From Butyrivibrio sp. (GTDB lineage Bacteria; Bacillota; Clostridia; Lachnospirales; Lachnospiraceae), in contig JAFUYO010000020.1 in assembly GCA_017470505.1 (NCBI GenBank), forward strand, positions 1 through 64,000: a stretch of DNA of 64,000 nt. Direction: 5' to 3'. The notes beneath the pieces are model-generated. The model did not search any database. It had not been told where the DNA came from and saw only the letters and a program-made list of their open reading frames with translations. Positions 15,626 through 59,725 of the stretch are shown in pieces. Every line of letters starts with the position of its first letter. Positions within the stretch are counted from its first letter, which is position 1. The position numbers were made by a program, and so were the translations under genes.

Positions 15626-16303
15626 TTAGTATGTAACTTCTCCATCATGTTTCAATAATGAAACGCTCGTTATTCCATCGATGGATGAGAGTTTTTTGCA
15701 CAGCTCTTTTCCGTCGGACGTCCTCAGCTCATAGGCCACGCTGACAAGTCCGTTCACAATGGTTCTTGACTTCTCATCGCAATTGCCTGTGCTCTCCCGT
15801 ATAGTCTTCTCAATTGTATCCTCTGTGTCGCCTTCTGCGCTGTAGCTCAAAAGGAGGATCTGAGGTGCTTTTGCCTGCGGTATCAGGTCAAGGGCGAGCA
15901 CGATTATAGTGATGCATAGCGCCAGCGCTATGGCAAGTCCGTAAATCCTTGCTCCGCAGATTATCCCCGTAGAAATGGACCAGAACAAGAATACCAGGTC
16001 CATAGGTTCTTTTATGGCAGTCCTGAAGCGGACTATGGACAGCGCACCGACCATACCAAGAGAGACAACTACGCTGGTCTGGATTGTAAGGATTATAGCG
16101 GCTGTTATTATTGAAAGTGCCGCCAGGGCGATATTAAAGCTCTTTGAGTAAAAGCCTTTTTTGGTCACGATCCTGTAAAAGCAGTAGATGTAGACAGCTA
16201 TTGCGCAGGTGACAGCCATCGATATGATTATGGTCTTTGCGTCCATCTGGGTCTGTGCATAGTTCTCAAGAAAAGAGTTTTTCAAAATATCCTTAAAGCT
16301 CAT
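15626..16303 (-). CDS. DUF4956 membrane protein
   Basis: A 225-residue protein with about four membrane helices in its first 140 residues and a soluble C-terminal domain of about 80. The segment SLGMVGALSIVRFRTAIKEPMDLVFLFWSI is diagnostic of the DUF4956 family, whose function is unknown. ATG at 16303 is chosen because GGAGGAATTT precedes it; an ATG at 16315 is possible. It follows the VTC gene with essentially no gap, and CotH lies just before that. CotH, VTC and DUF4956 genes are often neighbours in Firmicutes (from memory), so they probably work together. The C-terminal domain resembles small regulatory folds but was not identified. Confidence 0.85.
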   Translation of the reverse strand: MSFKDILKNSFLENYAQTQMDAKTIIISMAVTCAIAVYIYCFYRIVTKKGFYSKSFNIALAALSIITAAIILTIQTSVVVSLGMVGALSIVRFRTAIKEPMDLVFLFWSISTGIICGARIYGLAIALALCITIIVLALDLIPQAKAPQILLLSYSAEGDTEDTIEKTIRESTGNCDEKSRTIVNGLVSVAYELRTSDGKELCKKLSSIDGITSVSLLKHDGEVTY

Positions 16304-16315
16304 AAATTCCTCCAT

Positions 16316-17023
16316 TTATACAAATGACATCGGCATCATGCGGCAAAGCGCATATTTGGAAAAAGCCGTGTTTATCATCTTACCAAAAGAAAGCGAGTGC
16401 CTTATGTGGTCAGGAAGGAGAGTGTCATATTTAACCTCCATGATCTCCTTATCTGCAGGCATTATGGGTCTGACAGGAAGGTCCCTGTCAAAAAATCTGT
16501 CGAACATCTCAGAAGAAGCGATGTTCTCATCGAAGGTTATCCTGACATTTGACGGTCTCCATATGTATGGGATTCTCTCGTACTGGACGATCGTCACCGC
16601 TCTGAGTCCCCTTGTTGTCATCTTCATCACAAATCTGTTCCAGACCGGGTCCGGCCCGCAGCAAAGGCCCACATCCCCGTTTATCGCGCTTTCGGCCTGC
16701 GAACGAGTAATCCTTGCGCTGTCCTTGTAGGTCATGTTTCCGACTTTTCCCTTACACTCAAGCCGGATCATAGAATCGTCAGCATCATAGATCCGGATCC
16801 TCCACTTCTCTCTCTCACCCACGCCGTCTATCTTGTCACACAGGCACGAATCGTCAGGATCATCAAAATAGACGCTGCGTATGAGATATGTCCTTTTTTC
16901 ACCCAGATGCGGATCCTTTTCCATGATCCCCAAAAGGCGCATCTTCAGTATTTCAGCACTGCTTTTATGCAGAAAATATTTCTGTTCGGTCCTGAGTTTT
17001 TTATTCATTAAAAAATCCACCAT
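16316..17023 (-). CDS. VTC-domain (polyphosphate polymerase-like) protein
   Basis: A 235-residue protein of the VTC family, a tunnel fold in which yeast Vtc4 makes polyphosphate from ATP. Matching features are RTEQKYFLHKSSAEILKMRL, YLIRSVYFDD, KWRIRIYDADDSMIRLECKGK and a late EVKYDTLLP. The basic residues and the Glu-Lys pattern of the tunnel are kept. It is cytosolic, with no membrane helix of its own. Its start codon overlaps the CotH stop (TAATG), so the two are translationally coupled; ATG 17008 is an alternative start. The family also includes triphosphatases, and bacterial members are little studied, so true substrate and product are open. Confidence 0.85.
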   Translation of the reverse strand: MVDFLMNKKLRTEQKYFLHKSSAEILKMRLLGIMEKDPHLGEKRTYLIRSVYFDDPDDSCLCDKIDGVGEREKWRIRIYDADDSMIRLECKGKVGNMTYKDSARITRSQAESAINGDVGLCCGPDPVWNRFVMKMTTRGLRAVTIVQYERIPYIWRPSNVRITFDENIASSEMFDRFFDRDLPVRPIMPADKEIMEVKYDTLLPDHIRHSLSFGKMINTAFSKYALCRMMPMSFV

Positions 17024-18897
17024 TACCGCCCTTTTTCCTGTGTAAGCTCCATGTCCTCACGGACGAGTGTCTCAGTCGTAAAAAGCTCATCTCCAAAATA
17101 CCAGTCCATGCTGTCGTGATAGAGCGGAAGAGCTGCCGTTCCTATCGTATCTCCAGGCATTACAGGCATCACGAGGTTAAATCTCGATGTCGGGATGACG
17201 AAGGTCACCGTGACATAATCACTTTCATTCCTGTAATAGCCGTGAAGAAAATCAAGTCTGTCATTAAACCCCTGTATGATCTGTTTTCCTCTCTTCTGAC
17301 ATGTGGCAACGGCGTCATCAAAATCATCTTCCGTGAAGTCGTAACCGCCGTTTTTTATGGCATCAACTCCCGCTGAGTTGCCGATATCCTCAAGCCATTT
17401 CTCTGCGTCATTTACAAGGATCCTTCTCATTTTGGGCTCTGCGACATCATAGTAAAACTCTTTCATCTCTTCGTGAAAGTCCTTATGATTATCAAGCGCT
17501 TTCAGCCACATAATTCCCGATGGGTCCTTTTCCGGGATTGAAACTGAATTATTGTGGATTGAACGAACGGCAAGTTCAAGTCTCTCATTTTCGATAAAGT
17601 TTATGTAATCTGTGAGCGACCTGTCAAAATCCCAGGCGGGACCGCCGTACAGCATTCTCTCATTTTCTTTCACGTAGAAAAACTCGCTCGAATACTCCGT
17701 GTCAAGATTGACAGATATCTCCTGCAAAATAAACTGCCTGATCCAGGATGCGGTGTCAAAATAGTCTGACCATATCTTTCCCGAATCGTTCTTTTGTCCG
17801 TCTCTGAGGTAAAGAGCCTGTTCTGCCTCATTCACGAGACCTGATATGTACTCCTTTTGCCCGGCCGTGGCATTATTTGGGGACTTTATGCGGATCCATC
17901 TGTGAGGGGTCTCAAAGATAAGGTTCTGATCTTCGTCAGTCATGGTCTCATAGACGCCGAGTTCGGCGAGATATCCGCCTGTGACATCAGGAGCTCCTCC
18001 CATCATCTGCATCTTATCGTTGGCGGCCTCAAGGTCATTAAGCCCATGAAGGGTTCCGCCGTCGATTTCAATCTTCTGCGTCAGGAGATAGAGTCCCTCA
18101 TACTGTCCGTCCAGATAGACATTTACATAGCAGAACTCAGGGCTGTATATATCGCCAATATCTGCAGAGAGCTTGTACATGATTGCGTCCTTCAGAAAAG
18201 ATATGTCCGCAAACTCGGATATCAGAAGCCACTTGCGCTGCGCTCCCATACCGAGAATACTGCTGTCACTCTCCAGATTTATCTGATAGGACTTCTTGTC
18301 ATAGTTCCAGCTGGTATTGCCATGGATGCTGAGGCTGCAGTTGCCCGCAAAATTCTCATCACCATACTTGTCGATCACCGTACAGAACCCCGAGGCGGTA
18401 TTGCCCTTTTCCTGCGTCAGGTATTCCTTGCCCTCATCTTTGTTGTAAGTTCCAAGGTGAACGGAGGGAAGATCATTTACTCCCACAAACCTGAAAATCC
18501 CGGCAGCGCTTCCCAGAACATCAACGTTTATCTCTCCCGGAATCTCTTCAAATGCTTCTACAGAAAGAATGTCGCCGTCGCGGTAAGTTACTCCGGAAAG
18601 AGAAACCGACACATCTCTGTCGCAGACGAGTCTGATCCCGTCCTTTTCGTTCCAGTTCAGAAACACATCAAAGAGCACATCTCCGTCGTCGTTAAAATGA
18701 GCGTAAACTCCGCTTGCGGTTTCATCCGGAGCGCCGTCCGAAACAAAGCCGACCGTCTCATAGATAACAACATCCTCGTACTTCTTTGCCCTGCTGTCCT
18801 TATATACTATCGCAACGCACAGCAAAAAGAGTGCACCTGCGATAATGGCCAGAAAAAGCCATATTCTTTTTTTAGTCGTCTCACTGCTTCTGTTCAA
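17023..18897 (-). CDS. CotH-family protein kinase-like, membrane anchored
   Basis: A 624-residue protein with one membrane helix at 12-32 and a large extracytoplasmic part. The CotH kinase domain spans about 145-555: LSIHGNTSWNYDKKSYQI is the nucleotide-binding region and GGPAWDFDRSL (418-428) the catalytic metal-binding segment. CotH of Bacillus phosphorylates spore-coat proteins. A short beta-rich domain lies before the kinase and another after it. The start is TTG at 18897, with AAGGAG 10 bases upstream; no in-frame ATG fits. It heads the coupled CotH-VTC-DUF4956 set inside the polysaccharide operon. Its substrate is unknown; a wall glycan or a surface protein is possible. Confidence 0.88.
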   Translation of the reverse strand: MNRSSETTKKRIWLFLAIIAGALFLLCVAIVYKDSRAKKYEDVVIYETVGFVSDGAPDETASGVYAHFNDDGDVLFDVFLNWNEKDGIRLVCDRDVSVSLSGVTYRDGDILSVEAFEEIPGEINVDVLGSAAGIFRFVGVNDLPSVHLGTYNKDEGKEYLTQEKGNTASGFCTVIDKYGDENFAGNCSLSIHGNTSWNYDKKSYQINLESDSSILGMGAQRKWLLISEFADISFLKDAIMYKLSADIGDIYSPEFCYVNVYLDGQYEGLYLLTQKIEIDGGTLHGLNDLEAANDKMQMMGGAPDVTGGYLAELGVYETMTDEDQNLIFETPHRWIRIKSPNNATAGQKEYISGLVNEAEQALYLRDGQKNDSGKIWSDYFDTASWIRQFILQEISVNLDTEYSSEFFYVKENERMLYGGPAWDFDRSLTDYINFIENERLELAVRSIHNNSVSIPEKDPSGIMWLKALDNHKDFHEEMKEFYYDVAEPKMRRILVNDAEKWLEDIGNSAGVDAIKNGGYDFTEDDFDDAVATCQKRGKQIIQGFNDRLDFLHGYYRNESDYVTVTFVIPTSRFNLVMPVMPGDTIGTAALPLYHDSMDWYFGDELFTTETLVREDMELTQEKGR

Positions 18898-26734: not shown

Positions 26735-26778
26735 ATGATACGGATTGCTCCGCTTTTCTCCCGCAATCCATGTATCAT
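26735..26778 (-). promoter_or_regulatory. Intercistronic stem-loop between permease and ATPase genes
   Basis: ATGATAC-GGATTGC (26735-26748) pairs with GCAATCC-(AT)-GTATCAT (26763-26778), 14 bp with a two-base bulge. It starts at the permease stop codon and has no U-tract, so it is more likely an mRNA-stabilising or stoichiometry-setting hairpin than a terminator. It occupies most of the 58-base gap. Confidence 0.5.
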
Positions 26779-29836: not shown

Positions 29837-29857
29837 GTACTCGGCCTCCTTTGACTT

Positions 29858-30952
29858 TTACTCTGCGACCTTGGAGTCATACATCTTTGCGTAATACTTC
29901 TCATAGTCGCCGCTTGTCACATGCTCCATCCACTCGGCATTCTCAAAATACCACTTGATGGTCTTGCGGATCCCTTCCCTGAACATTGTCTCCGGCTCCC
30001 AGCCGATCTCGGTCCTTATCTTGTCGGGAGCTATAGCATAACGCCTGTCATGTCCTTTTCTGTCCTCGACATATGTGATGAGATCATAGGTCAGATTTTT
30101 CTTTCCGGGATCGGAGTCATCAAGCTCCTCTCTGAGGATATCTATTATTGTCTTTACTATCTCAATGTTCTGCTTCTCATTGTGTCCGCCGACATTGTAG
30201 GTCTCAAACAGCCTTCCCTTCTCCTGCACCATGTCGATCGCCTTGGCGTGATCCTCAACATAGAGCCAGTCCCTGACGTTCTTGCCGTCTCCGTAGACAG
30301 GAAGCTTTTTCCCCTCAAGGGCATTGTGTATGATAAGCGGAATGAGCTTCTCCGGGAACTGGTACGGTCCGTAGTTGTTGGAACAGTTGGTTATGTTTGC
30401 AGGGAACTTATATGTGTCCATGTAGGCCTTTACCAGCATATCTGAGCCGGCCTTGCTGGCAGAATACGGGCTGTGGGGCGAATAAGGAGTCGTCTCATAG
30501 AAAAAAGCCATAGGGTCATCAGGGAGCGACCCGTAAACCTCATCTGTGGAAACATGAAGGAATTTCCTGTCCTCCATGAAGGTGCCGTCCTCTCTCTCCC
30601 ATGCCTTTTTGGCGGCGTTTAACATCGTCGCTGTCCCTAGGACATTGGTCTTTACGAAGATCTCAGGATTCACAATCGACCTGTCTACATGGCTCTCAGC
30701 CGCAAAGTGTACAACCCTGTGTATGTCATTCTCCTCAAATATCCTGTTGATGGCGTCCCTGTCGCAGATATCTGCCTTTATGAAGGTGTAATTATCTCTT
30801 CCCTCCAGGTCCTTTAAATTTTCCAGATTCCCCGCATAGGTCAGGGCATCCACATTTATGATGCGGATATCATCCCCATATTTCTTAAACATATAGTGAA
30901 TGTAATTTGAGCCGATAAAGCCAGCTCCCCCTGTCACAAGATAAGTTCTCAT
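29858..30952 (-). CDS. rfbB: dTDP-glucose 4,6-dehydratase
   Basis: NAD-dependent short-chain dehydratase converting dTDP-glucose to dTDP-4-keto-6-deoxyglucose in the cytosol. It has 364 residues, slightly longer than the usual 330-355. The Rossmann motif is TGGAGFIGSNYI, the catalytic YxxxK is in SPYSASKAGSDML, and HVSTDEVYGSL and NCSNNYGPYQFPEKLIPL are family landmarks. ATG 30952 follows AAAGGACA. Its product is the branch point for rhamnose and other 6-deoxyhexoses; rfbC is present downstream. Confidence 0.96.
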   Translation of the reverse strand: MRTYLVTGGAGFIGSNYIHYMFKKYGDDIRIINVDALTYAGNLENLKDLEGRDNYTFIKADICDRDAINRIFEENDIHRVVHFAAESHVDRSIVNPEIFVKTNVLGTATMLNAAKKAWEREDGTFMEDRKFLHVSTDEVYGSLPDDPMAFFYETTPYSPHSPYSASKAGSDMLVKAYMDTYKFPANITNCSNNYGPYQFPEKLIPLIIHNALEGKKLPVYGDGKNVRDWLYVEDHAKAIDMVQEKGRLFETYNVGGHNEKQNIEIVKTIIDILREELDDSDPGKKNLTYDLITYVEDRKGHDRRYAIAPDKIRTEIGWEPETMFREGIRKTIKWYFENAEWMEHVTSGDYEKYYAKMYDSKVAE

Positions 30953-36231: not shown

Positions 36232-36587
36232 TCCTTGCCGGCCTCCTGTCCTATGTTCATCACCATGACTCCCGCCATTACAAGAAGAACCCCGACAGCT
36301 CTTCCCCCGGTGATGCCCTGCGAGAATATCAGAAAGTTCCACAGCATCGACCACAGGAGCGTCATCGCCTTGTTGATATATGCAACCGAGAGCTGGAATC
36401 TCTTAATCGCCTGCTGCCAGAGAATCGCATAAATCGCAAGTACCACGAACTCAAGAGCAAAGAAAAAGATATATCCCACTGATAAAAACTCATACCCGGA
36501 CGCAAGATTCCCGGCAACAGTCGAGAGCGAATACACCACCACGGAGAGCTGTAAAAGAAAATAATCCTTAAGTTTAAACTTATTCAT
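36228..36587 (-). CDS. Small EamA/DMT-family transporter subunit (ArnE-like)
   Basis: A 119-residue protein with four predicted membrane helices: LLQLSVVVYSLSTVAGNLA, GYIFFFALEFVVLAIYAI, an AYINKAMTLLWSMLWNFLIF segment and GVLLVMAGVMVMNIG. The GGRAVGVLLVMAGV block is the EamA signature. Its start codon overlaps the CotH gene by 8 bases and its stop overlaps the next EamA start, so three proteins are coupled. A heterodimer with the following gene product is likely. The role is probably flipping of a polyprenyl-linked sugar rather than drug efflux, judged by context only. Confidence 0.75.
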   Translation of the reverse strand: MNKFKLKDYFLLQLSVVVYSLSTVAGNLASGYEFLSVGYIFFFALEFVVLAIYAILWQQAIKRFQLSVAYINKAMTLLWSMLWNFLIFSQGITGGRAVGVLLVMAGVMVMNIGQEAGKE

Positions 36588-38703
36588 CGGTCATCCCCAT
36601 ATCCTCTTCAAGATACTGCTTAACATACTGTTTTCTGTCCCTTAGAAAGGTATCGATATCACTTAATCTCTCGAGGTAGCTTTTTTCGGCCTCATCCCGG
36701 TCCATGTCAAAGTACCTCATGAGGGATATTATATTCTGGGATCTGTACTCCTCATCCCATTCCACCAGCTTTTTGTGCAGAGCCTCATAGGAGTACTCAT
36801 TGTCCATAAGTTCCATCATCCGGTTGTAGTATTTCTCCCTGAACTCTTCATTTCGATACAGATGCCCGGGAAGATACATGGTGTCCGCAGTCTCGCGGTA
36901 GAGCTCGAAGGTGTTCGTATCAGCATCGCCGAACACGGCATCCATGTCGTAGATGATCCACCTCCACTTTCCACCCATCTCCCTGTACAGCATCTGGTTG
37001 TGGTCGTGGTCTATATCTTCGTTGTCAAAAAATATCATCGTGCAGAAAAAATCTATCAGATTGTCAATATCCACCAGATCACAGAGTATCTCGTAGACCT
37101 CTGGGTCGTCGCCCTCCCCTGCCAGAATGACATCCTTCATGTATGTGTAGCTCTCAAGTGCCTCATCTCCTCCGTACTCGGAGACGCCGTTCTTTATCAG
37201 CCAGAGATTGTTCTCCTCAATCCCGAAGTAGTTCAGAAAATACAGATCGTTATACTGCTCTCTTAAGTTGTAGACTCCCCAGTACTCGCCGTTTACAAAA
37301 AGAGCTGCCTGCCTGTTTCTCTGGATCACAAAACCAAGATCCGCAGCCGCATAGTGCACAAAGGGCTCATCGAATATAACGTCGCTCTCGCCCCTCCTGA
37401 GCCTTACCTTGTCCTCCTTTTCAGCAAAAAACGGCTCCCTGAAGCTGTCCCCTTCATCATAGATATCCCTGGCAAAAAGATTAAGCGACTTCTGAAAGTC
37501 GTAGCGCGATGACTCCCCGGCAATCCTGATCCCTACATTCTGTGAAAAGACAAAGTTGTGGTCCTTGTCAAATACCGTCAGATGCGCCTCTCGCTCCGAC
37601 TCCTTGCCGTATATGCTGGCATTGGTGTACTCGTACCTGTGTACAACCTCACCGTCCTCATTTACAGCCGAGGCCGGAACATCTCTGATATCGAGGTCTT
37701 CGACGCCTGCAAGCCTCCTGTACTCGTCAAACTCCTCTCCCAGGGCAAAGATCCCCCTCTCATAGCCAAAGAGCTCATCCGGGTCAGCCACGAGGGAGAC
37801 GACGGATACTCCTCTATAGTCCTCCCTGCCTCCAAAGCCGCAGAAATAGACGTGGGTTTCAACTTCGCTCTTTTTGCCTGTAAAGATGTTTACCGACATC
37901 GCCCTTATGACGTTGCACTTGTCGATCTTAAAAGAGGGAGGGGTATAGGTGGGATACATGATCTCATTGGCATAGACATTCTCATTTTCTGAAGCGTCAA
38001 AGAGCGTTATGCCGCCCGAGTATTTTTTAGATTCAGTCGTTGGCACACTTCCATCTGTTGTGTAATAGATATTGGTAAAGAGATCTGAAAAGAGCTTTAG
38101 CCTTGTACCTTCATCGTAGAAACCGTCCTCAAGGGAAAACACGGGGCTTTTTCCGGACGGCATCTCAATTTCGGGAGCTGCATTGTTGGAAGTTCCCGGA
38201 GTCGGGCTTTTTACGACAAAGCCCTTCACCCCATCCTCTCTCCTGCAATAGGAGGTGTTGTACTTTAGCTTTGGCACATATATCTCGTCAATTGGATTTC
38301 CGTCTTCATCTCCGAGGAGTAAAAACTCTCCCTCCTTTGAGATGCCAAAGGTGGCATGGAGTTCCCCCGACGAGTCCTTGCCCGAGAGCCACACCAGCAT
38401 GTACCCATGGGCAGGGATATCGGCAAAAAAGGAGTATTTTTTCGAATCATCTTCGTTGTCCGAGAGATAGAGTCTTCCCTGATAGTCGCTGCTCCCGCTG
38501 TTGTAGATCTCCGCAAAATCATAGTATTTTTCATTTTCGTCGCAGATCACGGAAAAGTTGTCAGAGCACACCTCATTGATGACAAGCCCGCCATCTTCCC
38601 TTGGCACACGAAGTGTCCTGTAAAACAGTCCCGCACCCACAAGAAACGCAAGGACAAAAGCGCATATTAAGATTGAATAGAGTTCCTTCTTTTTATTTCT
38701 CAT
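36580..38703 (-). CDS. LTD-chitobiase-like-CotH surface kinase
   Basis: A 707-residue extracytoplasmic protein with an N-terminal membrane anchor (about 9-28). A lamin-tail domain (about 38-172, opening LVINEVCSDNF) is followed by a chitobiase C-terminal-like beta domain (about 188-290, with NIYYTTDGSVPT) and a CotH kinase domain (about 295-690). CotH landmarks are VGIRIAGESSRYDFQKSLNL, FVNGEYWGVYNLRE and WRWIIYDMDAVFG (581-593), so the catalytic aspartates are present. The same three-domain order forms the C-terminus of the 1531-residue fusion at 50020-54615. It overlaps genes on both sides (ATGA with the SGNH gene; 8 bases with EamA). The substrate is unknown. Confidence 0.88.
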   Translation of the reverse strand: MRNKKKELYSILICAFVLAFLVGAGLFYRTLRVPREDGGLVINEVCSDNFSVICDENEKYYDFAEIYNSGSSDYQGRLYLSDNEDDSKKYSFFADIPAHGYMLVWLSGKDSSGELHATFGISKEGEFLLLGDEDGNPIDEIYVPKLKYNTSYCRREDGVKGFVVKSPTPGTSNNAAPEIEMPSGKSPVFSLEDGFYDEGTRLKLFSDLFTNIYYTTDGSVPTTESKKYSGGITLFDASENENVYANEIMYPTYTPPSFKIDKCNVIRAMSVNIFTGKKSEVETHVYFCGFGGREDYRGVSVVSLVADPDELFGYERGIFALGEEFDEYRRLAGVEDLDIRDVPASAVNEDGEVVHRYEYTNASIYGKESEREAHLTVFDKDHNFVFSQNVGIRIAGESSRYDFQKSLNLFARDIYDEGDSFREPFFAEKEDKVRLRRGESDVIFDEPFVHYAAADLGFVIQRNRQAALFVNGEYWGVYNLREQYNDLYFLNYFGIEENNLWLIKNGVSEYGGDEALESYTYMKDVILAGEGDDPEVYEILCDLVDIDNLIDFFCTMIFFDNEDIDHDHNQMLYREMGGKWRWIIYDMDAVFGDADTNTFELYRETADTMYLPGHLYRNEEFREKYYNRMMELMDNEYSYEALHKKLVEWDEEYRSQNIISLMRYFDMDRDEAEKSYLERLSDIDTFLRDRKQYVKQYLEEDMGMTDE

Positions 38704-50000: not shown

Positions 50001-50030
50001 AAGGGTGACAACCACGTTGTCACCCTTCTT
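50001..50030. terminator. Bidirectional terminator between convergent genes
   Basis: AAGGGTGACAAC (50001-50012) and GTTGTCACCCTT (50016-50027) form a 12-bp perfect stem with loop CAC. It is followed by CTTTT on the plus strand and TTTTAAAA context on the minus. It ends the lipoprotein gene and overlaps the last codons and stop (TGA, 50020-50022) of the giant minus-strand gene. Confidence 0.88.
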
Positions 50031-53000
50031 TTAACTCATCCACAAGGTCAGAAACATCCCCGTCGCTGTCGAGGTCATCTATCATGTACTGCATGATAAA
50101 TCCCGGTCTGTCCCTGTAAAAGCCGTCGATAAGTCCGACTGCGGTCCCAAAATCAATATCATCAAACGGGGGCTCATAGTCCTCTATATCGGGGTAGTTT
50201 TCAAGCTCATGCTCTCCCCTGAACCGTGCCTGTGACTGTATGTCCTGAACGCGGTATTTTTCCGCCATCTCCCAGAGCTTTCCCGAAACATCTTCATATC
50301 TGAAATTGTTGTTTATCATGTCCATCATTGATTCTACGAACAGTTTCTTAGACTCATCATTTTTTATCAGAGATGCAAAGAGCCGGTCGTCGACTAAAGG
50401 CCCCGTATCGGTCCACCAGTTGCCATACAGAAATGAGTCCACGTCTGCCGTGTTCATCCCTTCATCAAGGCTCGCCGTGTCATCGAGGTCATATAAAAGC
50501 CACCTCCACCTTCCGTCACCATATTCAGAGTCTGTCCTTTCCCTGCACCGCCACAGAGCCACATTGTTGTAGTAGGCATCGCTGTTTCCAAGAAAGATCT
50601 CGGCGGCATAGTAGTCAGCTGCGCTCCTGACATCTATCACTTTCTTTATGTACTCATAGTTTTCCCCGTCCGACAGGTCATTTTCTTCAGTAAATTTAAG
50701 GATATCGAGGTACTGCGCAAGAAACCCGCTGTTCTCCTCATCGGTATCGTAGCTTCCATAGCTCTTTTTCAAAATGGCAACATTTTCAGGATCTACCCCA
50801 TAGTGGTTAGATACATAGTTTTCCGATACTCTCTCCTGGATGTTGTAAAGCCCCCAGTACTCTCCGTTTAAAAACAGCACGCACGGAACGCCCTTCTGCG
50901 TTCCCACCGCACGGTCCTCAAGGAGAGACTGATGGAACACATCCCTCATTTTTGTCACATAGAGGTCCTCTCCGCCGCCACCGCTTCGAAGGCACAGACT
51001 ATCATACCTGTATCCGTTGTCCAGAAAATCATATCCGAAATACTCCTGCCCGTCGTATTCCTGCCTTGAATAGATATTGAAGCTCTTCTGGTTGAGTGCA
51101 ACCGACCAGCCGCCGTGAATCCGTATCCCCAAGCTCTTGTCAAAGACCGCGTTGTGGTTCTCATCGAAATACTCTATCTGCGCTCTCCTCTCCCAGCCTC
51201 GTCCCTCCATCGCGTAGTTCGCGTGGTAATAGGAAAAGTCCCTCTCTCTGTCATCCTTGTCATACTTGGCGGTATACCGGTCGTAGACGTTGCCGATCAT
51301 GTATATGCCCTTGTAGTAGTCAAAAAAATCTCCGGGCGATACCGTCAGCGATATTATAGGCATATCCCTGTAAAGATCCTCATCAAGCCCGACAAAAAAG
51401 GTTCTCGTTACGACATTGCTGACGCCCTTATCCGAGATGCATACGGCCTTGATGACAGTTCCCTTGTCGACCTCGTAGTCAGGAAGATATCTGTTGTCAT
51501 TGGAAATACCGTCTATCGCAGAATAGACATTTTTTTCACTGCTCCTGTCAGTTATTTTTATCGGCCCGTCATATACCGGCGATTCCTCGTCCGGGTCAGT
51601 CCCGTCGAGAGTATAGTGTATAACTCCCTCTTTGGATGTAAGTTCAACTTCTATGTCCTTACTAAACCAGCCACCGTCGGCGGAAAAGACCGGGGCGGAG
51701 AGGACAATGTTTTTACGTGGCGTAAGCTGTCTTTCAACATAGTAAGGCGATGGATAAGTTATGGTATATGTCTTTAAATCTGAGTAAGATACTGCCAGAA
51801 CCTCATCATCTGAAAGGTCCCCCGGAACCGGAACATAGCTTAGTACCTTGCCATAGGGGTCTGTTAACAGGCACGCCTCGCCATTCGAGATTTTAAATCC
51901 CAGGTCGTGGACATCGACAGGAACATAACCCTCGCTGTATTTAGAGACATCATCCTTATTATCACTGCACCAGGCAATTACAGCCTTCCCAGGCTCAACG
52001 TTTATATCTCCAAAGACGTATTTCATAAGAGAGCGCTTATCATCCGACAGTCCATACCCCTTCAGATTTATGGTCTTATTCGTGGGATTATAGATCTCAA
52101 TGTAGTCAGCTCCATATTCACCGTTGTCATCATAGGCGGCATGCACATTGTGGGCGCATACTTCGGATATCAGGACATCAGTATTATTAAGAGCAGCTTT
52201 GTGGCTCTCTGCATCCAGATACTGCACCAGCGCTATTCCAAGAAGCGCCGCGAAAAGAGCGCAGATCATGACCTTGTTTTTCTCCCTGCGGTCACCGTCC
52301 GTCAGTATAAAAAAAGCCAGTATGATAATAAGCGATATTGCGCTGACAGCCACTGCCACAAAAAGAGCCGGTATGTGGTAGGCTGCAGATATCTCATGCT
52401 CTCCCTCAGGGACAGCTATCAGCATCATTCCGCCGCTGTCGTAAACATCCGCTCTTTCTCCGTCTATCTCTACATCCCACCCCTCATCGTAGGGGATTGT
52501 GAACAGAACGTATCCGTCGCCTGAAAGAGATGTCCCGGCGTTAAAGCCTCTGCTGTTTTTTTGGAAGTTCTTAACACTGCGTGCAGTATTTTGGGCTACA
52601 AGAGAGGATATTGCCCTGTTATCAAAAAGAGCATTCTTCTCCACATGCTCTTTGTCCTCTTCGATGAGCCGCGTCACATCTTCTGCAGTAGCAGAATCTA
52701 TCCCAAGCTCGTCTACCAGCTCGTCCGGGACAACCGCCGCATATAAAAGTGCGATACCCCTCTGCTCTACAGGAAGAGTTCTGAGTTCCGATTCAGAGAT
52801 CACTTTGTCTGCCTCAAACCCTATCGGACAGGCTTCAAGTTCATAAATGTTCCACTCTTTGCCGTAAACCTCAAACGATAAATACGGGTCCTTGAGCTTA
52901 TCAAGAACCGCGTCGGGATAGCGCTCCTCCACTTTGTTTTCGCTCATCACAAGATATCTGCCTCCCAGAAACTCAGGAAGCCCCGGGATAAAATTCTTGT

Positions 53001-54615
53001 TCATCCTGCGCGATACATCCCAGTGGTCAAAGAGCTCGTCAAATTCGATGACAGAGCTGCTGGTTGTGGATGAGTAACTGCCAAGGCCCGTCACATTTTT
53101 GCCTGCCGCAAACATTATCATCGTATTTGTATAGTTCCTGTAGCGGTAGCTGTCAGGAATCTCGGGAAACTGCATCGATGCGGTATACGTATTCTTGAAT
53201 TCATCGTGAGATACAGGAGATGCGTCAATATAGAGCTTTTCCGCATAAATAAAGGTCAGAATACTTGAAAGTATGATCCCGCAAAAAAGTGTAGCCCTGT
53301 ATTTTCTGTCATCGCGGATTTTCATCACAGCGATGGTAAAGAGCATTGACAGGATGGTAAAAACTATCTCAAGAATAAACCTCAAAGGATGATAGAGAAG
53401 GCTCTCCCCGTCCTCTCTTATTAGACACACGGATATCCCCAAAAATGCCACAAGGAGTGTCTCTATGAGCGCGGGCACCTTAAAGCTGTACTTTTGTCTG
53501 TTTTCCAGTACAAGGACGCTTTCAAGCGCCATGATCAGTATGAGGAAGTACCACCATCTGTGATACACGATAGTAAACAAGAGAAATGCGCCGTTTCCGG
53601 CAGGAATAAAAGATATCAGCACAAGGAAACATGTAAGGCGCGATAAATAGTCCCTGTTGTGCAGGATGTAGGCAATGACGCACAGGATCCCGACAAGGGG
53701 AAGAAAGGCGTTAGTTGACGACCACTCATGAAACATCAGGCACGTCTCATCGAGCATTGCATCCCCCGGAAGGAGAAGTCCTTTCAGGATATAGAGTATG
53801 TGCTTAAAGTCATAAAGATACATAACCTCGGACAATCCCGCTGATGCACGCTCGTTGTCCATTATGTATCTGATGCTCGGGATAAAGATGATGCCTGAGA
53901 GCCCTACCCCCAGAGTGCCAAAAAGGATGCAGCCTGCAGCCTTTAAATAAGTCTCTCTGCGTCTCCAGCTAACTCTGAACACAAAGTAAATGACCACGGC
54001 CACAACGCTCTGAATGAAGAACACATAATTCGTGACACAGTTAATAAAGACAGCAAGCGCAAAGAATATGCCCTTCCTGCATCTTTTCGAAGGCTCTCTC
54101 TCATCGATGATCCCGTCACAGCCTGCCAGCATCAGCGGAAAAACCGCCGTTATGTCATGGAAACAGTAGAAAGACAGATTCGTACACTGAAGCCCCGAAA
54201 AGGCATAGAGAATAGCCCCTGCCATGGCAGCAAAGGACGTCTTCGTATGTCTTTTGATAAAAAAATACGCGGTATAGCAGGCTGTCAGATACTTCAGAAA
54301 AAAAATAACGCCTATGATGTATGGGAGAAACTTTCTTGATACCAAAAAGACCGGGTAGTAAAAGATGCTCCCTATGCCGTAATACCCATAGGCATAGAGC
54401 ATCGGGGTCCCGAGGTCAAAATTCCACATATACGTGTTCAGACCATTTTCAAACGCGTCCCGAAAGTTAAAAAGGAAGGGCAGCATCTGATTGTCAAAGT
54501 CATCAGATATATGATAAAATCCGCCGTTTCGCACGGTTACATACATGATAGGGATAAGGGCAGTAACAGCGCACATCAGCAGAAAGAGATGTTTTTCTTT
54601 TTTGTCCTGTTCCAA
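50020..54615 (-). CDS. YfhO-type GT-C fused to LTD, chitobiase-like and CotH domains
   Basis: A 1531-residue protein. Residues 1-770 form a YfhO-like membrane glycosyltransferase: about 12 helices, the first loop GGFYHISDDFDNQMLPF with an acidic pair, and an extracytoplasmic domain (about 460-745). One further helix (782-802) leads to an outside module. That module has a lamin-tail domain (about 813-935, VLISEVCAHN), a chitobiase C-terminal-like domain (about 975-1075, IHYTLDGTDPDEESPVYDGP) and a CotH kinase domain (about 1085-1505, with LGIRIHGGW, FLNGEYWGLYNIQER and RWRWLLYDLDDTASL). The start is TTG 54615 after AAGGAG. One chain thus joins a lipid-sugar-dependent transferase to a kinase fold. 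The GtrB-like GT2 gene is 15 bases upstream. Confidence 0.87.
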   Translation of the reverse strand: MEQDKKEKHLFLLMCAVTALIPIMYVTVRNGGFYHISDDFDNQMLPFLFNFRDAFENGLNTYMWNFDLGTPMLYAYGYYGIGSIFYYPVFLVSRKFLPYIIGVIFFLKYLTACYTAYFFIKRHTKTSFAAMAGAILYAFSGLQCTNLSFYCFHDITAVFPLMLAGCDGIIDEREPSKRCRKGIFFALAVFINCVTNYVFFIQSVVAVVIYFVFRVSWRRRETYLKAAGCILFGTLGVGLSGIIFIPSIRYIMDNERASAGLSEVMYLYDFKHILYILKGLLLPGDAMLDETCLMFHEWSSTNAFLPLVGILCVIAYILHNRDYLSRLTCFLVLISFIPAGNGAFLLFTIVYHRWWYFLILIMALESVLVLENRQKYSFKVPALIETLLVAFLGISVCLIREDGESLLYHPLRFILEIVFTILSMLFTIAVMKIRDDRKYRATLFCGIILSSILTFIYAEKLYIDASPVSHDEFKNTYTASMQFPEIPDSYRYRNYTNTMIMFAAGKNVTGLGSYSSTTSSSVIEFDELFDHWDVSRRMNKNFIPGLPEFLGGRYLVMSENKVEERYPDAVLDKLKDPYLSFEVYGKEWNIYELEACPIGFEADKVISESELRTLPVEQRGIALLYAAVVPDELVDELGIDSATAEDVTRLIEEDKEHVEKNALFDNRAISSLVAQNTARSVKNFQKNSRGFNAGTSLSGDGYVLFTIPYDEGWDVEIDGERADVYDSGGMMLIAVPEGEHEISAAYHIPALFVAVAVSAISLIIILAFFILTDGDRREKNKVMICALFAALLGIALVQYLDAESHKAALNNTDVLISEVCAHNVHAAYDDNGEYGADYIEIYNPTNKTINLKGYGLSDDKRSLMKYVFGDINVEPGKAVIAWCSDNKDDVSKYSEGYVPVDVHDLGFKISNGEACLLTDPYGKVLSYVPVPGDLSDDEVLAVSYSDLKTYTITYPSPYYVERQLTPRKNIVLSAPVFSADGGWFSKDIEVELTSKEGVIHYTLDGTDPDEESPVYDGPIKITDRSSEKNVYSAIDGISNDNRYLPDYEVDKGTVIKAVCISDKGVSNVVTRTFFVGLDEDLYRDMPIISLTVSPGDFFDYYKGIYMIGNVYDRYTAKYDKDDRERDFSYYHANYAMEGRGWERRAQIEYFDENHNAVFDKSLGIRIHGGWSVALNQKSFNIYSRQEYDGQEYFGYDFLDNGYRYDSLCLRSGGGGEDLYVTKMRDVFHQSLLEDRAVGTQKGVPCVLFLNGEYWGLYNIQERVSENYVSNHYGVDPENVAILKKSYGSYDTDEENSGFLAQYLDILKFTEENDLSDGENYEYIKKVIDVRSAADYYAAEIFLGNSDAYYNNVALWRCRERTDSEYGDGRWRWLLYDLDDTASLDEGMNTADVDSFLYGNWWTDTGPLVDDRLFASLIKNDESKKLFVESMMDMINNNFRYEDVSGKLWEMAEKYRVQDIQSQARFRGEHELENYPDIEDYEPPFDDIDFGTAVGLIDGFYRDRPGFIMQYMIDDLDSDGDVSDLVDELKEG

Positions 54616-54630
54616 AGGCTCACCTGCTCC

Positions 54631-55578
54631 TTACTTTTCTTTGGCGTAATCGCTGTCCTTGTGCCGATGAAGCATATTGAGCTGCATCTCAAACTGCCTC
54701 CTGTCGTTTATCGCAAGGGTCGACAGAATGATCCCCGCAAACATGCTGATAACAGCTGCCATCATGACAAAGCAGCACACAATAAGCGTCGGAAATCTGG
54801 GCACCATATGGGTTGCCCAGTACTCAGTGAATATGGGTGTAACGAATATAATGGATAGAATAGCAAGAAATGCCGCCACTATGCTGAAGAACCCAAAGGG
54901 CTTGTAGCTGCGATACAGCCTTGCTATGGTGCGAAGGACCTTGAATCCGTCGGCGTAGGTGTTCAGCTTGGACACCGAGCCTTCCGGGCGGTCCCTGTAA
55001 TCAATTACGACGTTGTCTATCTGCATATTGTTGTAGACAGCGTGGATCGTCATCTCAGTCTCTATCTCAAATCCCTTGGAGAGGACCGGGAAGGTCTTTA
55101 CGAACTCATAGGAGAACGCCCTGAATCCGGTCATAATATCCCTGACGTTACATTTAAAGAGCTTGTTGATGCTGCCGCGCACTAGGTTATTTCCGAAATT
55201 GTGGAAGGGCCTCTTGTTCTCCTGATAGTAGGTAGATGAGAGTCTGTCGCCAACAACCATGTCGGAGTTGTGGGTCAGGACAAGGTCCACCATCTCGGGA
55301 GCTGATTCCATGGGATAGGTGTCATCTCCGTCAACCATCACGTATACGAGGGCATCGATCTCGCGGAACATCCGCCTTATTACATTGCCCTTGCCCTGCA
55401 TATATTCGTTTCTCACAACAGCTCCGGCAGCCTCTGCAATCTCTGCAGTGCGGTCCTGTGAGTTGTTGTTGTAGACATAGATTGTCGCCTCGGGAAGAGC
55501 CGCCTTTGCGTCCTTAATAACCTTTTCAATCGTCTTCTCTTCGTTGTAACAGGGAATTAAAACTGCAATCTTATCCAA
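54631..55578 (-). CDS. GtrB/CsbB-like polyprenyl-phosphate glycosyltransferase (GT2)
   Basis: A 315-residue membrane GT2 of the dolichol-phosphate-mannose-synthase type. The catalytic domain has IAVLIPCYNEEKTI, VYNNNSQD, the metal-binding DGDDTYP and DIMTGFRAFSYEF. Two membrane helices lie near the C-terminus (about 228-300). Such enzymes load one sugar on undecaprenyl phosphate for a GT-C partner. CsbB of Bacillus works with YfhO, and a YfhO-type protein is encoded 15 bases downstream. The start is TTG 55578 with GGAGG 7 bases away, overlapping the preceding gene by 8 bases. Confidence 0.88.
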   Translation of the reverse strand: MDKIAVLIPCYNEEKTIEKVIKDAKAALPEATIYVYNNNSQDRTAEIAEAAGAVVRNEYMQGKGNVIRRMFREIDALVYVMVDGDDTYPMESAPEMVDLVLTHNSDMVVGDRLSSTYYQENKRPFHNFGNNLVRGSINKLFKCNVRDIMTGFRAFSYEFVKTFPVLSKGFEIETEMTIHAVYNNMQIDNVVIDYRDRPEGSVSKLNTYADGFKVLRTIARLYRSYKPFGFFSIVAAFLAILSIIFVTPIFTEYWATHMVPRFPTLIVCCFVMMAAVISMFAGIILSTLAINDRRQFEMQLNMLHRHKDSDYAKEK

Positions 55579-57109
55579 AACGCTTCCTCCAAAAACTGCT
55601 GATATTTTCCGCCCCGGCCGCAGCACCTGTTATATACACCGGAACATATATAAACACATATCTTGCCCTCGCCTCGAACAGGCACAGAAACAAAAATATA
55701 CCGATCAAAGTCATCTGGATGACCATGCCCTTTTTGCGGTCAGGTGACCTTAAGAAAAAGAGATTCAAGACAAGCACAACGAGCCATAGCGCATGAAACG
55801 CGGATGCAAGCACCTGGTAATACTCTCCCTCATAGATAAAGAGCTTTTTCAGAAAGGGCGAGAAAACCTGATCTTTGTCATCATAAAGCGGTGAGTAGAA
55901 GTCTCCCTCTATGCCGTAGCCAAAGGTCCCGTCATTGTAATTGACAAGTGTCTTCCTTGCCTCAAACATAAAAATGCCAAAAGGCAGCAAGGCCTTTATT
56001 CTCTTTTTGGCCTCTGAGAGGCAGTACTCGTATCTGTCATCATATTTCGGTATGAAGAGGGCGCTGTCGCTGTCCTCAAAATTAAAGGTTCCCGCCTCGT
56101 AGTCATTGAACCCCATCATCAGATAGTGCGTAAAGGGGCAAGCCTGCTCAGGATCAAGCACAATGCCGCAGGAGACATACATCGCCCTGAAAAGCCCCGC
56201 GGAAATCACAAGAGCAAGTATGGAACATACAAGAGCCCGTAAATAGCCTGTTATCTTCTCTCTCGCGATAACGGCCCTCAGAATATCCATCAAAAAAGTT
56301 ATCGAAACCGCAATAGTTGCAACTGCGGATGTCGCCTTGAGTCTGTACGCAAAAACAGCTGCGGCGCCAAACAGAAACGAAAGGAATATCTTCCTTCCCT
56401 TCTGCGCACCGTTTTCAGACGCCTTCATATATATCCATATCAGAAATACGGGGGCCGCAACTCCGAGGCTGTCCGTGTAGATCACTGAAAACCAGGGTGA
56501 TAACATCACCAGCAAAAGATATATTAAAAGTCCTGCTCTCACGGCGATCCGGCTTCCCGGTAGCATCATTTTAAGGATATCAGTAACGAGATATCCGCCA
56601 AAGGCAGAGAGCATGCATCCAAGGATCACCAGGACAAAGCTCGCGATCTCAAAATCAGTAACTCCGGCCAGGATACACAGCCTGAAAATCCCGTACTCGA
56701 TCAGGTGCATCAGGATATTGTTGGTGTAGTAAGAGTAGTACAGCTCCGGAGTCTCAACAGTTCCCACAAGCGCCTGCTGCCATGCCTTCTCCGACACGGT
56801 TCCTGCATCCCACCCGGAGTTGTAGTGGTAAAACCAGATCATTAATACCTGAAGCACAAATCCCGCAATGAGTATTGGCACCGGGTTTAACGGCCTGTCT
56901 TTAAATAATCTCATAGCCAGAAAGAGCGCAACAAACCCAAGTGCTGCCAGAGGCAGGTTTCCCAACAGGAACTCCTTTTTTACCCATATGGGGATTGTGA
57001 GATTTGTCATAAAAAGCACGATAACGCAGATCCACAGAAAAACCGCCTTGTGGATCAGACTTATCAGCCCCGAGAAAAAATCTGTAAGTTTATTTGATGC
57101 CGTCGTCAT
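55571..57109 (-). CDS. Polytopic membrane protein, GT-C/PMT-like
   Basis: A 512-residue integral membrane protein with about 12 helices. Segments NSGWDAGTVSEKAWQQAL (first loop), LSPWFSVIYTDSLGV and a late soluble loop with HYLMMGFND...GTF resemble glycosyltransferase 39-like proteins. The C-terminal pattern is shared with the partial gene at 63220-64000, so the two are probable paralogues. ATG 57109 is preferred to TTG 57127; either overlaps the radical SAM stop. Likely transfers a sugar from a polyprenyl donor outside the membrane; the acceptor is unknown. Confidence 0.68.
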   Translation of the reverse strand: MTTASNKLTDFFSGLISLIHKAVFLWICVIVLFMTNLTIPIWVKKEFLLGNLPLAALGFVALFLAMRLFKDRPLNPVPILIAGFVLQVLMIWFYHYNSGWDAGTVSEKAWQQALVGTVETPELYYSYYTNNILMHLIEYGIFRLCILAGVTDFEIASFVLVILGCMLSAFGGYLVTDILKMMLPGSRIAVRAGLLIYLLLVMLSPWFSVIYTDSLGVAAPVFLIWIYMKASENGAQKGRKIFLSFLFGAAAVFAYRLKATSAVATIAVSITFLMDILRAVIAREKITGYLRALVCSILALVISAGLFRAMYVSCGIVLDPEQACPFTHYLMMGFNDYEAGTFNFEDSDSALFIPKYDDRYEYCLSEAKKRIKALLPFGIFMFEARKTLVNYNDGTFGYGIEGDFYSPLYDDKDQVFSPFLKKLFIYEGEYYQVLASAFHALWLVVLVLNLFFLRSPDRKKGMVIQMTLIGIFLFLCLFEARARYVFIYVPVYITGAAAGAENISSFWRKRFG

Positions 57110-58109
57110 TATTGTTCCGGTTTCCAATTTTCATTCTCTCATGACCGCCGATCCTGTTGGCAGCGTCCTGGTCGCCCCTTAGGATTGCGTTTACCAGCTG
57201 CATCCTGAAGCCCGCGTCGATGAAGTCGCAGTGCTTGCAGAAGGGATAGTTCTGTCTCCCCTCAGCAATCTTTCTCCTGACCTGCTGGAACTTCTCAGAT
57301 CCCCAGGCTTCCTTCAGTGACATCTTATTAAGGTCACCGAAGTCGGTGGTCTCAAAGTTGTCGCAGCAGCACAGTCCCATCTTGCCGTTTGGCATTATCC
57401 ACATATCGGTAAAGGGCAAAAGGCAGGTTTCCGTTATGACCTTCTCTGTCTCCTTCTTGTTGGGAGCGCTTCCTGCGCGGTTTGTGAGAACCTCCTGAAG
57501 GTACCTCATCTGTATCTGGATATCAAGGTCCTTGAACTCATCGGGGTGAGCCTTGACATAGTCATACAGCTCCTGAATATTCTTGTGGAGCTTCATCTCC
57601 ATCGAATAGTTGTTGATGATCAGCTGGTTTATGTAGGGAGCAACCTCCTTGACCTTGTCGATTGTCAGTATCAGGCCGTTGGTCGACATGAAGATAAAAC
57701 TCTCAGGGAGCTTCTCTCTGGCGTACTTGTGTCTCTCAACTATCTTGGTGTCAAGGAGAGGCTCATTGTTGCCGTACAGAGTCAGATGCCCCTTGTAGCC
57801 CCAGTCTGCAAGCTGGTCTATGATGCTCCTGTAAAGATCGTCATCGATTTTGGCAAGCGGTCTTTTCTCAGCGTGCACATTGGCCGTGCAGAAGGCGCAG
57901 GTGGAATTGCACCTGTTAATGGTCTCGATGTTCACAACATTTGGCATCGGAACCTCTTTGGAATTCAGGAAATAGTCGCAGTAAGCCTTCTGTGACTTTC
58001 TCCTTGTCACAAACTGAAGCTTTAAATATGCGTTACTGGCAAGCATAGGGAAGTGTTTTCTGGCAAACCACCCGAATTTTCCCATGAAACTGTTAACTCT
58101 TATCGGCAT
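57090..58109 (-). CDS. Radical SAM protein with SPASM-like C-terminus
   Basis: A 339-residue cytosolic radical SAM enzyme. The cluster motif CNSTCAFC (Cys67, Cys71, Cys74; CX3CX2C) binds the SAM-coordinating 4Fe-4S cluster. LTLYGNNEPLLD is the glycine-rich SAM-binding strand. Cysteines in CLLPF, GLCCCDNF and CKHCDF near the C-terminus suggest an auxiliary cluster as in SPASM proteins. ATG 58109 follows AAGGAGATATGAG. Members of this group are found in lipopolysaccharide and capsule loci, often with unknown substrates. It overlaps a GT-C-like gene on its 3-prime side. Confidence 0.85.
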   Translation of the reverse strand: MPIRVNSFMGKFGWFARKHFPMLASNAYLKLQFVTRRKSQKAYCDYFLNSKEVPMPNVVNIETINRCNSTCAFCTANVHAEKRPLAKIDDDLYRSIIDQLADWGYKGHLTLYGNNEPLLDTKIVERHKYAREKLPESFIFMSTNGLILTIDKVKEVAPYINQLIINNYSMEMKLHKNIQELYDYVKAHPDEFKDLDIQIQMRYLQEVLTNRAGSAPNKKETEKVITETCLLPFTDMWIMPNGKMGLCCCDNFETTDFGDLNKMSLKEAWGSEKFQQVRRKIAEGRQNYPFCKHCDFIDAGFRMQLVNAILRGDQDAANRIGGHERMKIGNRNNNDDGIK

Positions 58110-58138
58110 CTCATATCTCCTTTGAACTGCAAATATAA

Positions 58139-59725
58139 TCATTCCGTGACCGGATTGTCATTCCTCTGGTAGAGATAGTAGGTGTGGTCAAAATCATAGA
58201 ACACACATCTCTCAGTCATCACCTTGTCATACAGATCTCTCTCACCCTCTGCAGGAGTATCACACGTCACAATAAAATCCGCCTCTCCCGAGTGGAGATA
58301 TCTCTTCTGATATTCCAGCACCTCGTCCATATTGAGAGTCTGGGTCTGGAAGTAGTAGCATATCGGCTCTATATCGAGCACGGTATAAAGTCCCACGTCA
58401 AAGGTAAACTCAACAATCAGCCCCGGGTCCTGAACTCCTGATGCCTTTATATGATCCCTGAACTTATATAGCCAGAGGCCGTCAGCAGTTACTCCCATGG
58501 TCTTCACATTCATGGACAAAAACCAGATGAGACAGGCGCCTGCCACAAGGGCAACCGGACACAGAACAAAGCGGACTGTTTTGTTTATAAGCTTTTCTAT
58601 TATATAACAAAACGGAATAAAACCAAACACCACAAAGGCGTTTATCGGAAACGAATAGTAGGGAAGACTCACACCTCCTATAAATATCACCAGCACAAGG
58701 AAAAGAAGCAGCATTCCAAGGTTGATGAGCTCAAACAGCCCCAGCTTTATCGTAACAGCCGTCTTCTCCCCTCTTATCAGGTAAGTGACGCAGGACGCAG
58801 TGAAGTAAACTATCCCGATCAGAATAAATACAAAGACAACCTTATTGTTCAGGAAATGATTTTTTAATATATCGTAAAAGAGGTATGCCCTCTCGCCTAT
58901 CGTTATCTTCTTGGAGTACTCAAACACATTCTTGTAGATGTAGACATACACCCAGCTGTAGAGCGATCTGTTTACCGCAAAGTATATTACCCAGGGGAGC
59001 GTTGCAAGTCCCATTCCACCGAGGAAAACAAGGCAGCTCTTAAACGCCTTTTCAATCTGAACGTCCCCAATGATATCCGCAAAGAATATCATCATCATGA
59101 ACGCGAAGTAAAAGCCGAGTGAATTGAACTTTATGTTGAGGACGCAGCCGGCAAGCACTCCGCCAAGAAGGACAGTCCCATAACCGCAGGGATGCGGATA
59201 CTCTTTTCTGAAATACTTCGCGGACAGGTACAGCCCCCACATGATGAAGGGAAACAGAAACTCCTCAGCGCTGCCTCCCCAGTAAAAATTCCCGGATGAG
59301 TAGATGACCGCACCGGAGAGAGATGTCACAACATAGGGCATCTGCCTGCTGCCTAAAAAAAGCTGTGAGATGCGAAAAATGGCCCTCAGCGAAAAGTATG
59401 CCGCAATTATCTCCATCAGATACACACCAAAAAAGGTGGTCGGCGATATGAGGGATGCAAGGCCGTAGATAAAATAGAGCATAATGCCCTTCTGGTCAAA
59501 CAGATCCCTGTACGGCACAAAGCCCCTGAAAATACACTTCCCGACAGTAAAGTAACTGTTGGCGTCATCCCAGAGATTAAATACATACAGAAAAGACGAC
59601 CTGCTGCAGATAGTCATGATGACTGCCGCTGACAAAAAGCACCACACATAGGGCATAATATCGCGCTTTTCGTAAACCGCATCAAGATCATATTGTCCTT
59701 TTTTTATTCCGAGTAATACGTCCAA
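58139..59725 (-). CDS. Polytopic GT39-like membrane glycosyltransferase
   Basis: A 528-residue membrane protein with about 11-12 helices. LWDDANSYFTVGKCIFRGFVPYRDLFDQKGI carries the acidic pair and the GxxPYRDxFDxKG block of ArnT/PMT-like GT-C enzymes. A soluble C-terminal domain (about 430-528) follows the last helix. The start is TTG 59725 with AAGGTG 6 bases before. It lies between two other membrane glycosyltransferase-like genes and likely uses a polyprenyl-linked sugar. Confidence 0.78.
   Translation of the reverse strand: MDVLLGIKKGQYDLDAVYEKRDIMPYVWCFLSAAVIMTICSRSSFLYVFNLWDDANSYFTVGKCIFRGFVPYRDLFDQKGIMLYFIYGLASLISPTTFFGVYLMEIIAAYFSLRAIFRISQLFLGSRQMPYVVTSLSGAVIYSSGNFYWGGSAEEFLFPFIMWGLYLSAKYFRKEYPHPCGYGTVLLGGVLAGCVLNIKFNSLGFYFAFMMMIFFADIIGDVQIEKAFKSCLVFLGGMGLATLPWVIYFAVNRSLYSWVYVYIYKNVFEYSKKITIGERAYLFYDILKNHFLNNKVVFVFILIGIVYFTASCVTYLIRGEKTAVTIKLGLFELINLGMLLLFLVLVIFIGGVSLPYYSFPINAFVVFGFIPFCYIIEKLINKTVRFVLCPVALVAGACLIWFLSMNVKTMGVTADGLWLYKFRDHIKASGVQDPGLIVEFTFDVGLYTVLDIEPICYYFQTQTLNMDEVLEYQKRYLHSGEADFIVTCDTPAEGERDLYDKVMTERCVFYDFDHTYYLYQRNDNPVTE

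Follow-up and report, generated by a model that had tools for sequence, protein, structure and literature searches.

A YfhO-type glycosyltransferase joined in one frame to a predicted extracytoplasmic CotH kinase module in Butyrivibrio: a likely genuine and so far single fusion

What do secreted CotH-type kinases that do not belong to the spore phosphorylate, and where does their phosphate come from? The question bears on a locus of Butyrivibrio sp. (Lachnospiraceae; assembly GCA_017470505.1, contig JAFUYO010000020.1, positions 1 to 64,000; this whole stretch of 64,000 nucleotides is called the window below), where the minus-strand gene at 50020-54615 encodes in a single open frame (1531 aa, TTG start) both a YfhO-type glycosyltransferase of the GT-C class and an LTD-CotH module. 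We take the protein for a likely genuine fusion, the only one seen so far, between a YfhO-type GT-C enzyme and a predicted extracytoplasmic CotH kinase module. A preliminary description, made from the letters alone, had reported the 1531-residue frame without stating its strand; the frame is real, but it lies on the minus strand, and a plus-strand reading of the same interval was rejected because it contains stop codons throughout.

The YfhO-type half takes up residues 1-775 (52291..54615), and the better of its two stretches of Pfam match (PF09586) covers residues 11-648 with 181.3 bits, against a cut-off of 28.5. An extra membrane helix follows at residues 782-800 (52216..52272; placed by hydropathy and alignment), corresponding to the anchor that free LTD-CotH proteins have at their N-terminus, and behind this helix come, in that order, the LTD domain (PF00932, residues 811-925, 51841..52185; 43.5 bits, cut-off 34.3), a chitobiase C-terminal-like/Fn3_assoc domain (PF13290 and PF13287, residues 981-1073, 51397..51675) and the CotH kinase domain (PF08757, residues 1164-1464, 50224..51126; 129.7 bits, cut-off 23.8), all on the minus strand. 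Within the chitobiase-like part, CHB_HEX_C_1 was matched at 981-1023 and Fn3_assoc at 990-1073, both above their cut-offs. The domains and their order had been named in the preliminary description and were borne out by the Pfam matches and by hydropathy; all four families that it had put forward for a profile search (YfhO, LTD, CHB_HEX_C and CotH) scored above the Pfam cut-offs.

Simple hydropathy gave 10 helices in residues 1-775 and one further helix at 782-800. The final helix of the YfhO half lies at 753-771 and is followed by TDGDRREKNK and then by the 782-800 helix; the linker between the halves (codons 769-782, 52270..52311, minus strand, ending in TDGDRREKNKV) is a basic loop that is predicted to be cytosolic. 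In the YfhO protein of Bacillus subtilis a large outer loop is described between the last two helices (PMC5836110); once past its last YfhO helix the fused chain would therefore be in the cytosol, and the extra helix would carry it back out. With this topology, drawn from hydropathy, the kinase module should face the side where the GT-C active site lies, and its extracytoplasmic placing, as proposed earlier, is backed by the Pfam matches, the hydropathy and the conserved residues.

Five residues of the CotH half (K1177, E1261, D1346, N1351 and D1376) were invariant in 20 out of 20 aligned CotH-type sequences, the fusion counted. D1346 stands in a D-x4-N motif and D1376 in YDLD, and both align to a bridging CotH protein of the same genome (L072), which in turn aligns with the solved CotH structure 5jd9; D1346 and D1376 thus map to the Asp motifs of 5jd9. 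In B. subtilis CotH, D228 and D251 are reported to be required for activity (PMC7821199), and D1346 and D1376 would match these two residues, the step to the B. subtilis numbering being ours. Neither a CotH nor a YfhO structure was returned when the PDB was searched by sequence with both halves and by profile with the CotH module: the LTD-CotH module matched solved structures in its chitobiase-like part only, and it was the related CotH protein that reached 5jd9.

In the YfhO half, Asp39, Asp67 and Asp154 were invariant in all 11 rows of our alignment (A2), and Asp39 probably corresponds to the conserved acidic residue of the first outer loop of YfhO, a loop that we take to face outside. The gene directly upstream (54631..55626, minus strand; PF00535) encodes a family-2 glycosyltransferase with two C-terminal helices and ends 15 nucleotides before the fusion starts. 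Its NCBIfam matches, dolichyl/polyprenyl-phosphate sugar synthases and PgfS among them, were all below cut-off and do not settle its subfamily. It is likely the GT-A partner that makes a lipid-linked sugar. The sole NCBIfam match of the fused protein was PgfM2, with 51 bits, far under the cut-off of 1500. The run continues upstream (55571..58142, minus strand) with a membrane protein that resembles TIGR03766, below cut-off, and a radical SAM/SPASM protein; the gene of the latter, at 57090-58142, shares the run with the family-2 glycosyltransferase gene and the fusion.

This arrangement recalls the three-component CsbB/GtcA/YfhO systems, which decorate lipoteichoic acid in B. subtilis or wall teichoic acid in Listeria (PMC8035078, PMC5836110), and csbB and yfhO are described in one operon (PMC5836110). 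Like these systems, the fusion has a YfhO-family GT-C half, a GT-A gene directly upstream and a last YfhO helix that would return the chain to the inside. Unlike them, it continues into an additional helix and an LTD-CotH module predicted to lie outside the cytoplasm, and no GtrA-type flippase was found among the 32 out of 43 gene frames of the window that were scanned with Pfam. The CotH Pfam domain with its two Asp motifs is shared with the atypical kinases of the CotH type (spore coat CotH, 5jd9/5jda, PMC7821199), whereas the fused CotH, unlike the spore coat protein, is predicted to be anchored in the membrane on the outside, accompanied by LTD and chitobiase-like domains and joined to a GT-C enzyme.

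At the join, the end of a complete YfhO half meets the start of a CotH half that, like its free relatives, retains the anchor helix and the basic n-region. Codon usage of linker codons 769-782 scored -3.83 per codon in the fused frame, as compared with -4.72 and -4.85 in the other two frames, and in a control the true frame scored best in 1237 out of 1289 stretches of 14 codons taken from other window genes. Close relatives of each half occur separately. YfhO halves with 48-58% identity, unfused over the length read, were found in 4 out of 78 other genomes of the genus (G272, G271, G221 and G255, the last cut at its start only), and CotH halves with 44-50% identity in 15 out of 78 (G274, G207 (twice), G266, G251, G208, G245, G235, G227, G269, G248, G222, G205, G238, G233 and G244). 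Free proteins that align across the LTD-CHB_HEX_C-CotH module at 42-50% identity made up 14 of the 19 other rows of alignment A1.

The preliminary description had based the fusion on a free version of the module inside the window, at 36580..38703 (minus strand, 707 aa). The product of this gene does hold CotH, Fn3_assoc and CHB_HEX_C_1 above the Pfam cut-offs, but its LTD match is below (18.4 against 34.3), and with 29-32% identity to the fused module, against 44-50% for genes in other genomes, it is a distant paralogue and was rejected as the parent of that module. That argument thus fails, and gene fusion is supported instead by the separate close relatives of the halves, by the codon usage of the linker and by unfused YfhO-CotH pairs; we hold it to be rather probable that the fused frame is genuine.

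The unfused neighbourhoods are, in our judgement, a stronger result than the fusion itself. They bring in two more families, absent from the preliminary description: a polyphosphate-polymerase-type gene (VTC) and a membrane gene (DUF4956). We placed the CotH, VTC and YfhO matches in 26 genomes of the genus, including our own, and obtained 68 CotH places, a count in which two genes probably figure twice because their matches are split. VTC lay within 3.5 kb of 38 places and YfhO within the same distance of 7, the fusion itself counted among the 7. The same-strand run YfhO-CotH-VTC-DUF4956 was present in 5 of the 26 genomes, namely that of the fusion (G000, on another contig, C45), G230, G262, G272 and G273. 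When the nearest ATG is taken as the CotH start, the YfhO stop and the CotH start share a 4-nucleotide ATGA in G230, G273 and G272, overlap by 14 nucleotides in G262 and lie 20 nucleotides apart in G000. These five runs look orthologous and so do not count as independent events; the YfhO protein of the run on C45 is too distant from the fused YfhO half to be matched in the genus scan. At the seventh place (G271), a gene closely related to the fused YfhO half stands 3'-to-3' with CotH-DUF4956-VTC, and the same 3'-to-3' order was observed in G255, outside the 26 genomes, where the CotH and YfhO genes (L080, 7833-10028 and 9973-12240) overlap by 56 nucleotides at their 3' ends. CotH-VTC-DUF4956-YfhO also lie on one strand in two Eisenbergiella loci, G003 has VTC-DUF4956-YfhO with CotH 2.5 kb upstream, and in G004 the CotH and YfhO genes are divergent and about 100 nucleotides apart, with no VTC in the 10 kb of DNA examined. 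The association of YfhO, CotH, VTC and DUF4956 is repeated, yet far from universal, and unfused neighbours in several genomes lend support to the coupling of the YfhO and CotH families.

Taken with the topology, these observations suggest a chain of steps on one acceptor. The upstream GT-A enzyme (54631-55626) would load a sugar onto undecaprenyl phosphate inside the cell, a flippase would turn the lipid-linked sugar outward, and on the outer face the YfhO half would hand the sugar over to an acceptor. By way of the short basic turn in the cytosol and the second helix, the chain would place the LTD domain, the beta-sandwich and the CotH kinase on this same outer side, where the kinase may phosphorylate the newly sugar-decorated acceptor, be it on the added sugar or on its protein or polymer carrier. 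In this chain, the flippase, the catalysis, the common acceptor and the identity of the phosphate donor are what we infer, and sugar and phosphate are presumed to be added to the same polymer. We give a probability of roughly 0.5 to this reading, that is, a genuine and topologically coherent fusion of a GT-C enzyme and a kinase, predicted from sequence, that would serve the tailoring of a surface polymer with a presumed shared acceptor.

Several observations weigh against it, and the first is rarity. The fusion was seen in one draft genome (83.9% complete, 56 contigs). In the genus scan (Butyrivibrio, at most 7 candidates scored per genome), 75 out of 79 genomes, including our own, matched the fused protein at E 1e-10, and in the family scan (two candidates scored per genome) 48 out of 200 did; no second fusion was found in the 78 other genomes of the genus or the 199 other genomes of the family that were scanned. 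The survey of the architecture across Lachnospiraceae that the preliminary description had proposed gave, at this depth of scoring, no fusion other than that of G000. Pfam-model matches compared by position in 60 genomes of the family gave no frame with both YfhO and CotH except in G000, and among the best 80 of at least 430 confirmed relatives of the YfhO half, obtained by a pattern scan of named genomes, there were 0 fusions. Order-wide, 193 out of 392 genomes matched in a scan for YfhO, a scan whose silence on fusions is weak, with at most two candidates scored per genome among the matches listed. A search of 72,556 plasmid records never returned both halves together, and single halves were found in 2 records. 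Close relatives of both halves occurred together in 0 of the 78 other genomes of the genus.

The neighbourhoods of the fusion's own relatives weigh on the same side. VTC and DUF4956 stood beside 2 out of 12 close free CotH relatives (G205 and G238) and YfhO beside none of the 12, and 78 out of 80 loci of YfhO-half relatives, searched over at most 8 kb on each side, were without CotH, VTC or DUF4956; CotH was found in 2 of the 80 loci by a broader CotH model, adopted after a first model had missed divergent CotH genes. No CotH was present in the 20 kb around the YfhO-half relative of G221. No VTC or DUF4956 lies beside the fusion, and the only such pair found in the window is more than 30 kb off, with another CotH gene. 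The join, too, has features of a former boundary: a T7 run (A7 on the plus strand, 52309..52315; codons 767-769 on the minus strand) where a gain or loss of one base would end the YfhO frame, with the other frames stopping about 2 and about 5 codons on, and an AGGGAG before ATG783, whose ATGA holds an out-of-frame TGA and resembles a former two-gene junction or start site. Lastly, ATP is generally scarce outside cells, so an extracellular kinase needs a phosphate donor that can be explained.

The alternative that survives best builds on the join: two ordinary adjacent genes would be read as one, owing either to an error of one base, in the T7 run or at another point of the linker, or to a neutral frameshift that this strain acquired recently, and the proteins would be separate or the fusion functionless. 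Both the T7 run and the overlap at ATG783, which is like the ATGA junctions of the unfused pairs, are what such a history would leave, and the fusion is a singleton in all surveys. The YfhO half of G272, the closest, and the CotH half of G244 cannot decide the matter, as their contigs end on the join side (that of G272 at the position equivalent to residue 751) and either could hide a fusion. Against two separate genes, the linker codons score as coding in the fused frame, and a start at ATG783 would lose the basic n-region that free relatives carry before the anchor helix. Homopolymers of 7 or more are common here (26 in the window, 24 of them inside genes and six of these in the fused gene). 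Among the 19 other window genes that have a relative of at least 45% identity in the stretches examined, the relative spans 90% or more of the gene in 17; the exceptions were w23156, with a relative truncated at the edge of its stretch, and the multi-domain GH25 protein w32485. We consider an artefact or a neutral frameshift unlikely.

Other long frames were considered as further fusions and rejected. L090:3545-7750 (G549) and L091:4937-8764 (G152), from two genera of the same family, encode YfhO fused to a class I/II aminotransferase, and L090 has additionally an N-terminal GtrA domain. L092:4261-7710 (G517) encodes a GtrA flippase-type domain fused ahead of YfhO, which is another fusion of successive steps of a glycosylation pathway. 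L185:1993-5697, L186:2345-6376 and L187:2423-5920 each form one frame, of 1165-1343 aa, in which our own CotH model found no CotH; their main YfhO match starts only after about 300 residues or more, behind an N-terminal extension. Frames listed with 1864 aa (G020), 1888 aa (G547) and 1236 aa (G275, locus on C4) are actually separate YfhO genes of 885-971 aa, which stand in tandem in G547 (C832) and G020 (C6). The long CotH frames L073 and L182 were repeat-bearing surface proteins without YfhO: L182:5387-9931 (G265) encodes a large surface protein, a CotH protein of 1514 aa with nine Listeria-Bacteroides repeat stretches and a match to BspA-type leucine-rich repeats. Other long CotH frames (e.g. 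in G010, G011, G027 and G058) were compared by position with the YfhO matches.

A second alternative keeps the fusion and changes the acceptor. Pgf enzymes act on proteins, and the fused protein could be an O-glycosylation enzyme of the Pgf kind, with a CotH half that works as a Ser/Thr protein kinase on the same secreted or wall glycoprotein. The below-cut-off matches to PgfM2 (fusion) and PgfS (GT-A neighbour) point this way, and the characterised CotH is described as a protein kinase (PMC7821199). The surrounding genes point away from it, as they form a polysaccharide locus, with an ABC-2 exporter (26775-27776), a Wzt-type ATPase (25358-26716), nucleotide-sugar genes (28967-30952) and an MBOAT gene (42593-44140). 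We regard a protein acceptor, too, as unlikely, and rank it after the two-gene explanation. That the CotH half is instead a binding or scaffold module, whose LTD and beta-sandwich bind wall glycans and hold YfhO at its acceptor while kinase chemistry is lost or irrelevant, would agree with the extracellular carbohydrate-binding parts that some large GT-C enzymes are thought to bear for acceptor binding (PMC8035078), but the retention of the five catalytic-type residues in every aligned sequence is unexpected for a mere scaffold and makes this the least probable alternative.

The window as a whole is, by its gene content, a cell-surface polysaccharide locus, which also includes a priming sugar transferase (9834-11306), GH25 (32485-35475) and several further family-2 glycosyltransferase genes, as assigned with Pfam. 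Inside this ABC-exporter locus sits a run of CotH (17023-18897), VTC (16316-17023) and DUF4956 (15626-16315), all on the minus strand; this CotH is the third of the window and went unmentioned in the preliminary description. The run (15626..18897) resembles the accessory genes of Gram-positive Pel loci, for which CotH, polyphosphate polymerase, DUF4956 and DUF4832 genes are described (PMC7112168), in that a secreted CotH has neighbours of the VTC and DUF4956 types and the setting is one of surface polysaccharide. In Streptococcus intermedius, deletion of the secreted CotH or of the membrane gene of the CotH/polyphosphate polymerase/membrane-protein trio is reported to alter Pel levels and to lower aggregation (PMC12345266), which argues that CotH proteins of this kind act in surface polysaccharide biology. 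The authors of that 2025 paper state that their search for this order of three genes beyond the Pel locus was unsuccessful. Unlike in the Pel loci, the CotH-VTC-DUF4956 runs here stand in ABC-exporter or YfhO settings, as far as the families searched for go (the pel genes were not among them), and some related genomes add YfhO as a fourth gene. YfhO is not mentioned in PMC7112168, and the role of CotH stays a hypothesis in the Pel papers (PMC7112168, PMC12345266). The open-licence papers searched gave no text in which CotH, kinase and YfhO occur together, and in the one listed with both YfhO and CotH, "CotH" was part of an author's name.

The fusion and these runs might belong to an undescribed envelope system that couples glycosylation and phosphorylation of one surface acceptor, in which YfhO would deliver a sugar from the lipid carrier, the secreted CotH would phosphorylate this sugar, and VTC on the inside and DUF4956 in the membrane would make a donor such as polyphosphate and pass it across the membrane to CotH. 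This supply is proposed because of the scarcity of ATP outside the cell; we consider the reading as a whole doubtful, a longer shot than either the two-gene or the protein-acceptor explanation. Fam20B and POMK, animal kinases of the secretory pathway that add phosphate to a sugar while a glycan is being assembled, offer a working analogy, though they are eukaryotic and not fused to a GT-C enzyme. If true, bacteria would have in this envelope system a counterpart of such glycan kinases that also supplies its own donor.

For secreted non-spore CotH-type kinases, the fusion and the repeated YfhO-CotH-VTC-DUF4956 runs point to the products of YfhO-type enzymes, whether glycans or glycoproteins, as the substrate, and the soluble kinase half is directly testable. 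They also hint that bacteria may phosphorylate their own surface glycans or glycoproteins.

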